DNA of 55,867 nt. Source: Opitutales bacterium (GTDB lineage: Bacteria; Verrucomicrobiota; Verrucomicrobiia; Opitutales; Coraliomargaritaceae). This document shows positions 7,599 to 39,273 of the stretch, in pieces. The notes under the pieces are model-generated. The model searched no databases. It saw only the letters and a program-made list of their open reading frames with translations, and had not been told where the DNA came from. The stretch spans positions 1 to 55,867 of the forward strand of contig JANQXM010000062.1 of the NCBI GenBank assembly GCA_030729385.1, written 5' to 3'. The translations under genes were made by a program, and so were the position numbers. Each line of letters starts with the position of its first letter. Position 1 is the first letter of the stretch.

Positions 7599-7701
7599 TT
7601 CCGAGCCTTGAGCTTGTCGAAAGGCGACATGACCGGGCACTTCGCTTGGCGAAGGGAACCGGACCACCGTAGGTTAAAGTCCCCAGTTCGATCAGCCCAC
7701 C

Positions 7702-7762
7702 AGACCCAAAAAAACCGAACGTTTCCGTCCGGTTTTAAAAGTGGTGGTCGAAGGGGGACTTG
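7702..7762. repeat. Native tRNA-Leu 3' end plus terminator (direct repeat copy 2)
   Basis: This is the partner of the 61-bp direct repeat at 7538-7598. It overlaps the functional tRNA-Leu gene (last 21 nt) and the 40 bp that follow it. The identity is complete over 61 bp and stops at both flanks, which suggests a recent event. Confidence 0.8.
7708..7735 (-). terminator. Rho-independent terminator of tRNA-Leu
   Basis: On the minus strand an 8-bp stem with a GAAA loop is followed by seven T, a few bases after the encoded CCA end of tRNA-Leu. Confidence 0.85.
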
Positions 7763-7826
7763 AACCCCCACGCCTTGCGGCACCAGTCCCTTAAACTGGC
7801 GTGTCTGCCGATTCCACCATTCGACC
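7742..7826 (-). tRNA. tRNA-Leu with anticodon AAG
   Basis: On the minus strand the gene folds as a class II tRNA: acceptor GGTCGAA/TTCGACC, D stem GTG/CAC, anticodon stem CCAGT/ACTGG with loop TTAAGGG, a long variable arm (TGCCGCAAGGCGT), T arm GGGGG TTCAAGT CCCCC, discriminator A and encoded CCA. The loop places A34 A35 G36 (7792-7790), which reads Leu codon CTT. Most bacteria use GAG here; A34 is normally confined to tRNA-Arg(ACG), where TadA converts it to inosine. All stems pair fully, so a decayed gene is unlikely. Confidence 0.9.
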
Positions 7827-8034
7827 AAAATTCCAACGCTTTCGCGTGGTGAAGTTGGAAGGTGATAGGCAGCTTTTTTTCGAGATCAACATAAATATTC
7901 AAAAAAATTAAATTGTGCCTATAAATAGTGACGTCAGGCTTGTATCTTCCTTCGCGTTCAACTAACACTTTTTATTCTCACTAACTCACACCCACGTGGC
8001 CGCGCAAAGCGGTTGCGTTTTTATTCATAAGTCC

Positions 8035-9936
8035 ATGGCTGATAAAGCATCTGATTCTTCTAAACCTGCCTCCAAGCAGGCACTCGACCTTAATGCGCTT
8101 TCAGGTCTTGATTTCGGGCCTAATTGGGCCGACGAAACCAAGAAGCAAAGTCGCCCAAAAAACTACGATCAAAAGGGAGATACCCGTGGTGGTGATCGTC
8201 GCTCTGGTGGTGGTTCGCGTGATCGCCGTCCCAGTGGTGGGGCTCGTCCACCGCGCCATGATGGAGGTGAAGGTCGTCCGCCACGTCGAGATGACCGTGG
8301 AGATCGCGGCGGAGATCGCCGTCGCCAGGCACCTGTGATTTTCCAACCTACGGTGCACGTCGATATTTATCCGCAGGATGAAGCCTTTGAAGCTTTGGTG
8401 AAGCGACTGCGCGCGACTGCTCGCACATATCAGTTATTCGAGATCGCCCACCTGCTCTTGGAAAAGCCAGAGCGTTATGTCGTGGTGGTCACCAATTTGC
8501 CAACAGGCGGTGTGACGCCACCTTTGCATTTTTCAGTGCCAGGGCATCTGCCTTTTGAAACCGAAGAGGCCGCGATCAGCCATGTGCTTTCAAATAATCT
8601 TGATTTGTTTTTCGATGTTGAAGAAATCGAAGTAGAGCCACCAAAGGGCAACTTTCAAATGGTCAATCGTTGCACTGTGACTGGTGAGTTACTCGGGCCG
8701 CCGAATTACCATCGTTATCAAGAGTTTTTGCAGAAACATTATGCCGCACGGATTTCCTGTATGTCGTTTGAGCGTTTTCAGTCGAAGATCGAAACGGTGA
8801 AAGAACAGGAGCAGATTGATGCTTGGCTCGAATCGATGAAGAAGGGTGCACGTTACACGGTTAAAGATCATCAAGAAGGTGAGCCTGAGTCGTTGGAATC
8901 GCTCGAAGCCGTTCGCCACTTCCTCTTACAGCATCGTAAGGACAAAGTTGTTGGATCCGGCGAGCATGTTCGTTTCGCAGGTCGCGACATACTGAATTTG
9001 CCAGTAGGTGATATCCGCCGTTCTGTTGAAGCGTATGTAGAGAAACAACTGCATTTCCCACTCGAAGCGGCTAACAATATTCGCGGTCGCTTACGCCGTC
9101 ATAAATTCACCGTTTATAAAAAGGGTTCCAAGGGCGTTTCTTATGTCTGTGCGGTTAAACGTAAGTTCCGTGACAGCAAGACTGTCTTCACTGATTCCAT
9201 CAGCAACCTGATTGATTTCATTGAGAAGCATCCGGATTTACCTGCTTCTAAATTGCCGAAACTCTATATCGATATCGATACCGAGAAGCAAAAACCAGTG
9301 GAGTTGAAAGTATCTGAGGCTGAAGTCGCAGCTGCGGCAGAAGCTAAAAAAGCTGCGAAGGAAGCTGCAGAAGCAGCAGCTGAGTCTACTGAGACAACCG
9401 AAGTTGCAAGCGAAGCGCCTGTTGAAGCTGCAACCGTTGAAGCCATAGTCGCTCCCGATGCGGAGGCCTCTACAGAAGCCACCCCTGTGGTCGAACTGAC
9501 TGCCGAGGAGCAAGCTAAACTGAATCAGCTTATGTTAGATTTGCGTTGGTTGATCACTGAAGGTTATGTCACAGAGTATGGTGATGGTAAATTGTATGCC
9601 GCGCCGACATTGCCCGAGGCTAAGCCAAAAGAGCCTAAAGCAAAGGTAGAGGCACCTAACGAAGCAGTTGCTGCTGAGGTTGCCTCGAAAGAGGCAGCTG
9701 CTGTAGAAGAACCAGCACCAGCAGAGCCCGAGGTAACTGCCGAAGTGGCAAAGGAAGTCGTGGAAGAATCCGCACACGTCGAGCCCGCTCCTGAAGTCGT
9801 AGTCGCAACCGAAGAGGCTGCCGCCGAAGCTGTAGCACCAGAGCCAGAGGAAGCGCCAAAGAAGGCTGCTTCTGATGAGGTTGATGCCGAAGCGCCGGCT
9901 GATGCTACGCCCGAAGCTGGAGAGCCTAAAGCTTAG
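8035..9936 (+). CDS. Uncharacterised protein with Arg/Gly-rich tail-like region, conserved core and Ala/Glu-rich C-terminus
   Basis: I do not recognise a named family. With ATG 8035 the protein has 633 residues; a GTG at 7996 would add 13 unlikely residues. Residues about 35-95 are very rich in Arg, Gly and Asp (repeats such as RGGDRR and DRGDRGGDRRR), resembling RGG-type RNA-binding regions. Residues about 100-420 form a folded core with FQPTVHVDIYPQDEAFEAL, a pair-like CTVTGELLG segment and a basic block (RGRLRRHKFTVYKKG). The rest is low-complexity Ala/Glu/Pro/Val, interrupted near residue 500 by a helical segment (KLNQLMLDLRWLITEGYV) that looks like a small winged-helix fragment. A role with RNA or ribosomes is an inference from composition. 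A strong terminator follows, so it is probably monocistronic. Confidence 0.8.
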   Translation: MADKASDSSKPASKQALDLNALSGLDFGPNWADETKKQSRPKNYDQKGDTRGGDRRSGGGSRDRRPSGGARPPRHDGGEGRPPRRDDRGDRGGDRRRQAPVIFQPTVHVDIYPQDEAFEALVKRLRATARTYQLFEIAHLLLEKPERYVVVVTNLPTGGVTPPLHFSVPGHLPFETEEAAISHVLSNNLDLFFDVEEIEVEPPKGNFQMVNRCTVTGELLGPPNYHRYQEFLQKHYAARISCMSFERFQSKIETVKEQEQIDAWLESMKKGARYTVKDHQEGEPESLESLEAVRHFLLQHRKDKVVGSGEHVRFAGRDILNLPVGDIRRSVEAYVEKQLHFPLEAANNIRGRLRRHKFTVYKKGSKGVSYVCAVKRKFRDSKTVFTDSISNLIDFIEKHPDLPASKLPKLYIDIDTEKQKPVELKVSEAEVAAAAEAKKAAKEAAEAAAESTETTEVASEAPVEAATVEAIVAPDAEASTEATPVVELTAEEQAKLNQLMLDLRWLITEGYVTEYGDGKLYAAPTLPEAKPKEPKAKVEAPNEAVAAEVASKEAAAVEEPAPAEPEVTAEVAKEVVEESAHVEPAPEVVVATEEAAAEAVAPEPEEAPKKAASDEVDAEAPADATPEAGEPKA

Positions 9937-11981: not shown

Positions 11982-12067
<86 letters not shown>

Positions 12068-37684: not shown

Positions 37685-38794
37685 TTAGTGCACGTGTCCG
37701 AAGTCGAATTGCTTCGTTGCTTGGCGAGTGAGGGCGACCCACTCATCCCATGTTTCTTTGAGGGATGCACGGAGTGCTTTGATCTCTTTCTCTAAGTTAG
37801 CTTTCTGATCTTCGGAAGCTTGTTTGAGCTCGCGAACCTTCACCATAACGGCTGCGGCTTTTTCTTCAAAAATAGCAGATAGTTCTTCGAGCTTTGCTTT
37901 GAGCTCTGCTGCAAGTTCGCCTGCTTCGTCTTCGAGGTGCTCGATCATCATCTTCTTATCTTTCATGACGAGAGACTTTTGCACGGTCACATCATTGATC
38001 ACGCGTAGGCTGGAAACCATGCCGAGCTTTGAGGCCACCCAGATCGTCCACTTTGATGGGTCGAAGTGATACCAGCGGATACCGTTGCGATAGTCCGCGG
38101 CGAAGGCGTGGTGATAGTTGTGGTAACCTTCACCGAATGTAAGGACGGCCATGATCGCATTGTCGACGGCACTGAGCTCACGGGCATAAGTCTTTGCGCC
38201 ATAAGTATGGCAAAGTGAGTTGATGAACCATGTGCAGTGGTGAATCATCGCCATACGCATAAGGAAGCCCATGTAGAATGAGGCGAGTGCGCTACCGGTG
38301 ATTGCCCATCCGAGGAAAAAGACCGCGAGATTTACACCGAGCAGGAACTTCCCGTAGTGCTTGTCTTGCAGCATCACACGTGGGTTCTTCTTGAGGTCGG
38401 CCACAAGTGATTCGTCGTAGTCGCGCTGGTAGTCGAATAACCAAAGCACGTGCGCATACCAGAAACCCTTCTTGATGGAGTAGGGGTCTTTGTTGGTATC
38501 CACGTGATTGTGGTGGATGCGGTGGTCGTGCGACCACATGAGCGCTGACATTTCAAAGGCCAGTGCCGAACTTAGTAGCACACACCATTCGAAGAATGGA
38601 TTCGCAGAGTAAGATTTGTGCGCATACAGGCGGTGGTAGCCCACCGTGATGGACATGCCCCCTAGTATGTAGGTAATCAGGAAGAATATGACTGCCGTCC
38701 ACGAGAATACATTAATAAAGGCAGGTAGAAGCGCGATGAGCGCAATGTGGTAGGCGACCACGAAGGAAAACATGTCCCAATTTTTGATTTTCAT
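37685..38794 (-). CDS. Acyl-CoA/acyl-lipid fatty acid desaturase with C-terminal coiled coil
   Basis: This is a membrane di-iron desaturase of 369 residues. The three His boxes are HRLYAH (54-59), HDHRIHH (89-95) and HNYHH (225-229). Four helices flank them. It should introduce a double bond, probably delta-9, into saturated acyl chains using oxygen. Residues about 278-350 form a long charged coiled coil (HLEDEAGELAAELKAKLEEL), an extension beyond the catalytic core. It is monocistronic, with a strong terminator. The upstream region carries a tandem two-hairpin element that probably controls it, for example in response to temperature or membrane state. Confidence 0.93.
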   Translation of the reverse strand: MKIKNWDMFSFVVAYHIALIALLPAFINVFSWTAVIFFLITYILGGMSITVGYHRLYAHKSYSANPFFEWCVLLSSALAFEMSALMWSHDHRIHHNHVDTNKDPYSIKKGFWYAHVLWLFDYQRDYDESLVADLKKNPRVMLQDKHYGKFLLGVNLAVFFLGWAITGSALASFYMGFLMRMAMIHHCTWFINSLCHTYGAKTYARELSAVDNAIMAVLTFGEGYHNYHHAFAADYRNGIRWYHFDPSKWTIWVASKLGMVSSLRVINDVTVQKSLVMKDKKMMIEHLEDEAGELAAELKAKLEELSAIFEEKAAAVMVKVRELKQASEDQKANLEKEIKALRASLKETWDEWVALTRQATKQFDFGHVH

Positions 38795-38826
38795 ATAATA
38801 GAAAGGTTTGTTGTGTATGTGAGGGT

Positions 38827-38946
38827 GGTCCGTGGTTTACAGGGACCGGGTGTAATCCTAGTCAGATTACTGTATTTGTTGTATTGTGCCCGTGGTTTAC
38901 AGGGGCGAGAAGTCATCTGGAGTAGATCACTCAGGTGTCGCGACAG
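38827..38946 (-). promoter_or_regulatory. Tandem 60-bp two-hairpin element upstream of the desaturase
   Basis: Two units (38827-38886 and 38887-38946) share the layout. Hairpin 1 has an identical 11-nt loop (plus-strand GTGGTTTACAG) closed by GGTCC/GGACC in unit 1 and by GCCC/GGGC in unit 2; the third pair changes from T-A to C-G on both sides. Exactly 25 bp into each unit begins hairpin 2: GTAATC...GATTAC in unit 1, GTCATC...GATCAC in unit 2 (one mismatch). The rest of the units has diverged. Unit 1 ends its first hairpin 33 bp before the desaturase ATG. It may be a structured leader RNA on the minus strand or a double operator in DNA. A palindrome, TGTCGCGACA, lies at 38936-38945. Confidence 0.6.
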
Positions 38947-39273
38947 TTCTTAGAGGTAGCTTATTTGATCAAAAAGTTCATCCAGAAATATCGTTGACCT
39001 GTGCGCGCAGTAGATATGCGATATTCTTAAATTGTCAAGGCTATTCAATGTCGATGAAGCGTCTTCTGTGGGTATTGTAGTAATTTAAGATGCTTATTAT
39101 CAATGGATTAAGACTAGATCTTGGCGTATTAGCAGACCTTAATTAGCTCCGATTCGACATGAAGTCTTCTAAATACATTGGAAATGCTAAGGACTCTCAG
39201 GCACTGGCTTGGGCATATTGTCGTTCAGGGTTCAACGATTGCATTTTGCCGAGACACTTGCCTTTTTGTAGGG

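Follow-up and report, generated by a model that had tools for sequence, protein, structure and literature searches.

A tandem hairpin element with a nearly fixed loop in the desaturase leader of one marine Verrucomicrobiota genus

As judged from sequence comparison, the mRNA leader of a fatty acid desaturase gene in one marine genus of Verrucomicrobiota very probably contains an undescribed RNA control element. The window, a stretch of 55,867 nucleotides, is contig C62 of an Opitutales genome of 2.59 Mb (G000), the relatives of which are labelled Coraliomargarita and Puniceicoccaceae. An earlier note on this DNA had described, at 38827-38946, two adjacent 60-bp units that share an 11-nt loop and in which pair 3 of the first stem is T-A in one unit and C-G in the other. 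All of this was found there: two copies lie 60 bp apart, with an identical loop (GTGGTTTACAG on the plus strand and CTGTAAACCAC on the minus strand). The second hairpin, placed by the note 25 bp into each plus-strand unit, was likewise present, with one G-G mismatch in unit 2 as counted on that strand. Read on the minus strand, each unit is about 42 nt long and consists of a hairpin A, a spacer of 4 to 5 nt, and a hairpin B that carries the loop CUGUAAACCAC (Table 1). The hairpin B stems have 4 to 6 pairs in seven of the eight units known and 3 pairs in the eighth; at least four pairs can be formed around an 11-nt loop at 2.4% of window positions, or at 0.43% if only Watson-Crick pairs are counted.

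Table 1. Features of the desaturase gene and its leader in G000, in order of window position
Feature	Position	Strand	Description
Fatty acid desaturase (PF00487)	37685..38794	-	369 aa; ATG at 38794; leader carries the element
Linker from last hairpin to start codon	38795..38826	-	32 nt; no G; no Shine-Dalgarno; begins ACCCTCACATACAC
Unit 2 (proximal) hairpin B	38827..38847	-	GGTCC CTGTAAACCAC GGACC; loop 38832-38842
Unit 2 (proximal) hairpin A	38852..38870	-	GTAATC TGACTAG GATTAC
Inter-unit linker	38871..38887	-	no G
Unit 1 (distal) hairpin B	38888..38906	-	GCCC CTGTAAACCAC GGGC; loop 38892-38902
Unit 1 (distal) hairpin A	38912..38930	-	GTGATC TACTCCA GATGAC; one G-G mismatch
TTGACA, -35-like hexamer of a putative promoter	39033..39038	-	ACTGCGC about 20 nt further on

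Orthologous leaders and covariation

Desaturase relatives were drawn from 57 related genomes, 80 loci of named genomes, and nine viral contigs, and among them the element was found only in G000 and in two genomes of the same genus, at the orthologous place. These two genomes, G001 (L010/L097) and G002 (L011/L052), encode desaturases that are 82% and 80% identical, respectively, to that of the window, and each carries three units. Upstream of the desaturase, the gene content varies (G000 has a divergent adenosine deaminase, G001 and G002 other genes), while the desaturase is constant, which links the element to the desaturase and not to its neighbors. Unit spacings are 60 in G000, 68 and 53 in G001, and 72 and 57 in G002. 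The loop and the pairing were kept in all three genomes, with the surrounding upstream sequence largely diverged.

Hairpin B was present in all eight units, and hairpin A, which is variable in sequence, folds in seven of them. The loop CUGUAAACCAC is unchanged in six of the eight units, the deviant forms being CUGCAAAUCAC in unit 0 of G001 and CGGUAAACCAC in unit 1 of G002. The stems that hold it are GCCC/GGGC, GGTCC/GGACC, GCTC/GAGC, AAGCCC/GGGCTT, AGCCC/GGGCT, and GTCC/GGAC, with CCC/GGG in unit 1 of G002. The linkers of the three leaders contain 2 G and 58 C in 204 nt, as if they were held free of pairing. The last hairpin ends 32 nt upstream of the start codon in G000 and 32 to 34 nt upstream across the three genomes, a distance that is kept while the linker sequence is partly changed; the sequence ACCCTCACATACAC that opens this linker is largely conserved in the genus.

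The three orthologous leaders were aligned with MAFFT, which is blind to structure, and RNAalifold recovered from that alignment all four hairpins that make up units 1 and 2, with seven pairs in which both sides had changed while still pairing. When the named structure was imposed on the three-leader alignment, 88.9% of cells were paired and six pairs were double changes, compared to 2.3 in shuffles (1 of 500 was as high) and 0 to 1 in slid versions. The stem of hairpin A in unit 1 is UGAUCU/AGAUGA, UGAUCC/GGAUCA, or a quite different, G+C-rich CUGCCC/GGCCAG, depending on the genome, and all three fold. Hairpin A has weak spots, in that it is not formed in unit 0 of G001 and is weak in unit 2 of G002. 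An alignment of all eight units also showed covariation, units within one genome being related by duplication. Moreover, on the minus strand the leaders folded better than dinucleotide shuffles (z of -2.3, -3.7, and -4.9 in the three genomes), and in the family's other genera most leaders of desaturase genes folded no better than shuffles. What decides the case for selection on structure is that the stems covary at orthologous sites across the three genomes. The proposal that selection acts on both the fold and the loop was thus borne out by this covariation together with the fixed loop, and two more genomes have the loop with covarying stems, so that the refuting outcome named in the earlier note did not arise.

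Past the Pfam domain, the desaturase itself continues at its C terminus for about 120 aa that are rich in K, E, and A and likely form a coiled coil; alignment coverage suggests that this extension is common to the family. Desaturases that are 38 to 47% identical over most of the query were seen in genomes of Chlamydiae, Bacteroidota, and Rhodothermales (L098-L118), and gene transfer may be the reason for this patchy distribution. Nine IMG/VR contigs (L121-L129) encode desaturases 67 to 71% identical to that of the window, and either viruses carry these genes or the contigs are bacterial ones that were assigned to viruses. The hairpin element was absent from all nine.

Strand, leader signals, and distribution

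The element is best read on the minus strand, which is its natural reading because the desaturase that it precedes lies on that strand. The association with the desaturase, as the earlier note had it, stood, and the orientation had to be turned. A TTGACA hexamer, followed about 20 nt on by ACTGCGC, lies upstream of the first unit in G000, G001, and G002. A promoter scan accepted the TTGACA site in G002 only and rejected it in G000. If this site is the promoter, all units would lie inside the transcribed leader. Unit 0 of G001 and of G002 is a hairpin followed by a U6-U7 tail and by its sequence resembles an intrinsic terminator; a scan accepted it in G002 only. Since the terminator-like tail is missing in G000, termination cannot be the sole mechanism. 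The U run that follows unit 0 makes sense only on the minus strand, and hairpin A contains minus-strand G-U pairs that would be A-C on the plus strand. One outer pair is a wobble on the plus strand only, so that pairing alone does not prove the strand; the location within the leader of the desaturase, the U run in two genomes, and the minus-strand G-U pairs carry more weight than this hint, which the earlier note had raised. No Shine-Dalgarno sequence was found before any of the 29 desaturases checked. With no such sequence present and with the hairpins ending well before the start codon, the leader does not have the form of an RNA thermometer that hides a ribosome-binding site.

Searched for by itself, the exact loop 11-mer has no occurrence in G000 outside the two units and none in G002 outside two of its three units; G001 has it at two units and at one further site. 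A covariance model built on the unit (R1) gave significant matches in the three genomes at the eight units only, with two further matches above an E value of 2. Among 44 genomes of the family, the model identified none beyond G000, G001, and G002, and nothing credible was found among 373 genomes of the order. The two weak matches at the order level (L140, E of 0.002; L141, E of 0.0125) lie inside protein-coding frames, are at chance level over 373 genomes, and were set aside. The element was not found near the desaturases of other genera, and the exact tandem word was found in G000 only among 388 genomes of the phylum. Five viral contigs (L142-L146) with two loop words 35 to 65 nt apart were also rejected, as their surroundings are unrelated and mostly repetitive. 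One of these, L142, contains at about 7600-8500 numerous imperfect repeats in tandem, each about 66 nt long, that match the model weakly; the region looks repeat-rich and coding or structural, and is unrelated to the element. With one locus per genome, and the same locus in all three, the element is neither a dispersed repeat nor the mark of a visible regulon.

A search of the whole window against Rfam 15 at the gathering score gave no match except three tRNAs, and a search of 38700-39200 at lax E values, up to an E of 5, gave none. The literature search returned no relevant paper on a desaturase leader RNA or on such a motif in Verrucomicrobia. The element, without an Rfam match, is a new motif among structured leader RNAs, the general kind being a known one.

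Candidate mechanisms and alternatives

We lean, tentatively and at a chance approaching even, toward a cis-acting leader RNA whose loops may serve as repeated sites for a trans-acting ligand, which would probably be a protein. The element would be transcribed together with the desaturase and would resemble beads on a string, each unit being a hairpin A, with its structure kept and its sequence free, a short spacer, and a hairpin B that presents the nearly fixed 11-nt loop, with almost G-free, single-stranded linkers joining the units. One ligand, most likely an RNA-binding protein, might recognize the repeated loops and adjust synthesis of the desaturase by way of transcription through the leader, as the terminator-like unit 0 of G001 and G002 would permit. 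It might also, or instead, act on translation or mRNA stability, given the near-constant distance between the last hairpin and a start codon that lacks a Shine-Dalgarno sequence. A protein partner is favored because the core is tiny, the copy number varies, and a single gene carries the element.

Tandem arrays in which RNA-binding proteins recognize loops are known from the CsrA/RsmA sites of bacteria and the U1A boxes of eukaryotes. The element shares with both the repeated hairpins and a single fixed loop on free stems. It differs from a leader bound by CsrA/RsmA in that the loop lacks GGA and in that no CsrA was detected in the genome; a search for CsrA gave no match in the six genomes searched and did give matches in the controls. 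Hfq was not detected either. Each of the three genomes encodes two RRM proteins, those of G000 being C55:10927 and C11:33779. Since RRM proteins are also encoded in genera without the element, they are candidates only, and no partner is indicated. RbpB, an RRM protein of Bacteroides, is a global RNA binder, although it was found mainly on single-stranded regions (PMC11697453).

Three further partners or resemblances of the loops were considered and rejected. The anticodon loop of the tRNA-Tyr at 11982-12067 of the window, CUGUAAA, equals the first seven bases of the B loop; however, U33 or the anticodon is altered in two of the units, and the B loop is longer by four bases, so that this is taken as a coincidence. 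Pairing between loop A and loop B was dismissed because loop A is not conserved, and a trans-acting RNA perfectly complementary to the loop was dismissed because the 11-mer is nowhere else in G000.

As an alternative that we regard as unlikely, the leader might be purely structural: its hairpins and its linkers, poor in G, would have no specific partner and would govern mRNA stability, pausing of RNA polymerase, or termination, whether Rho-dependent or intrinsic, possibly as temperature varies. Desaturases are classic cold-response genes, the linkers are fairly C-rich as well as poor in G, and unit 0 is terminator-like in two genomes, all of which such a structural leader would accommodate. 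Yet it leaves unexplained why an 11-nt loop is conserved amid changing stems, there is no Shine-Dalgarno sequence to hide, and the terminator-like tail is absent in G000.

A tandem riboswitch, in which the B loops, perhaps through docking of two B hairpins as in guanidine-II, would bind a small molecule or ion and alter termination or translation, is distinctly unlikely, even though it is the best known analogue of the element. A riboswitch calls, among other things, for structure that is conserved and covaries in a gene's leader, and such structure was found, transcription of this leader being predicted from the putative promoter. Guanidine-II (mini-ykkC) RNAs are defined by two G+C-rich hairpins with ACGR loops, and like the element they occur in a leader as two or more small hairpins that share one loop and are connected by a variable linker (PMC5486947). 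In contrast to them, the element has the loop CUGUAAACCAC, which is neither an ACGR tetraloop nor self-complementary, and an extra, variable hairpin A in each unit; it occurs as two or three units before a desaturase gene and has no Rfam match. Similarly, the HMP-PP (thiS) class has an unusually conserved loop in a terminator-like hairpin (PMC6478431), as does unit 0 of G001 and G002, but the tail is missing in the other units and in G000, the units are in tandem, the gene is a different one, and again Rfam gives no match. The very narrow distribution, the single target gene, and the lack of any hint of a ligand also speak against a riboswitch; nor did anything point to a ligand for the lipid or temperature sensor that the earlier note had thought plausible.

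The put RNA of phage HK022, for comparison, is composed of two adjacent hairpins. Active in cis while transcription is under way, it is part of a leader RNA (PMC9378689), and in this respect the element here may be alike; put, however, serves phage antitermination and the element has repeated units.

The earlier note had also raised a double operator, and a DNA-level site of that kind, in which the inverted repeats are bound as such or as a cruciform recognized as single-stranded DNA, is very improbable. The repeats lie near the gene and both strands fold better than shuffles. Both hairpins, however, keep complementarity and not stem sequence, and the complementarity of hairpin A with unrelated stem sequences would be needless for a double-stranded operator. 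In addition, the 11-mer core is not palindromic, the spacings of 53 to 72 keep no helical phase, and the location is downstream of the putative promoter. There is equally little reason to favor a small or mobile repeat without function for the gene, whether REP-like or a duplicated terminator. Variable copy number and spacing and the terminator-like unit 0 of two genomes would fit such a repeat, whereas its confinement to the same single locus in each of the three genomes, and the retention of loop and pairing amid diverged flanks, would not. Finally, a leader peptide with the loops as in-frame repeats (CKPR) is almost certainly wrong: in G000 a minus-strand frame (38780-38930) does open with an ATG where hairpin A of unit 1 ends and run through both loops to an ATGA overlap with the desaturase start, but the spacings of 53 and 68 nt in G001 and the stops that break the frames in G001 and G002 speak against it, and the stem covariation would be left unexplained.

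Returning to recognition of the loops by a trans-acting ligand, a bolder version is possible but doubtful, namely, that the element represents a new modular class of leader RNA, built of tandem A and B units, the fixed loop of which would be read by an RNA-binding protein or ligand reporting on the state of the membrane. Such a class would give dedicated post-transcriptional control of desaturation in the absence of detectable CsrA or Hfq. The element is a well-supported structured RNA tied to one gene, the product of which sets membrane fluidity. If it is bound by a protein or by a lipid-related signal, desaturation would be under post-transcriptional control in a phylum with little-studied RNA regulators. 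With the unit so short and the loop fixed, the element lends itself to fishing for its binding partner.
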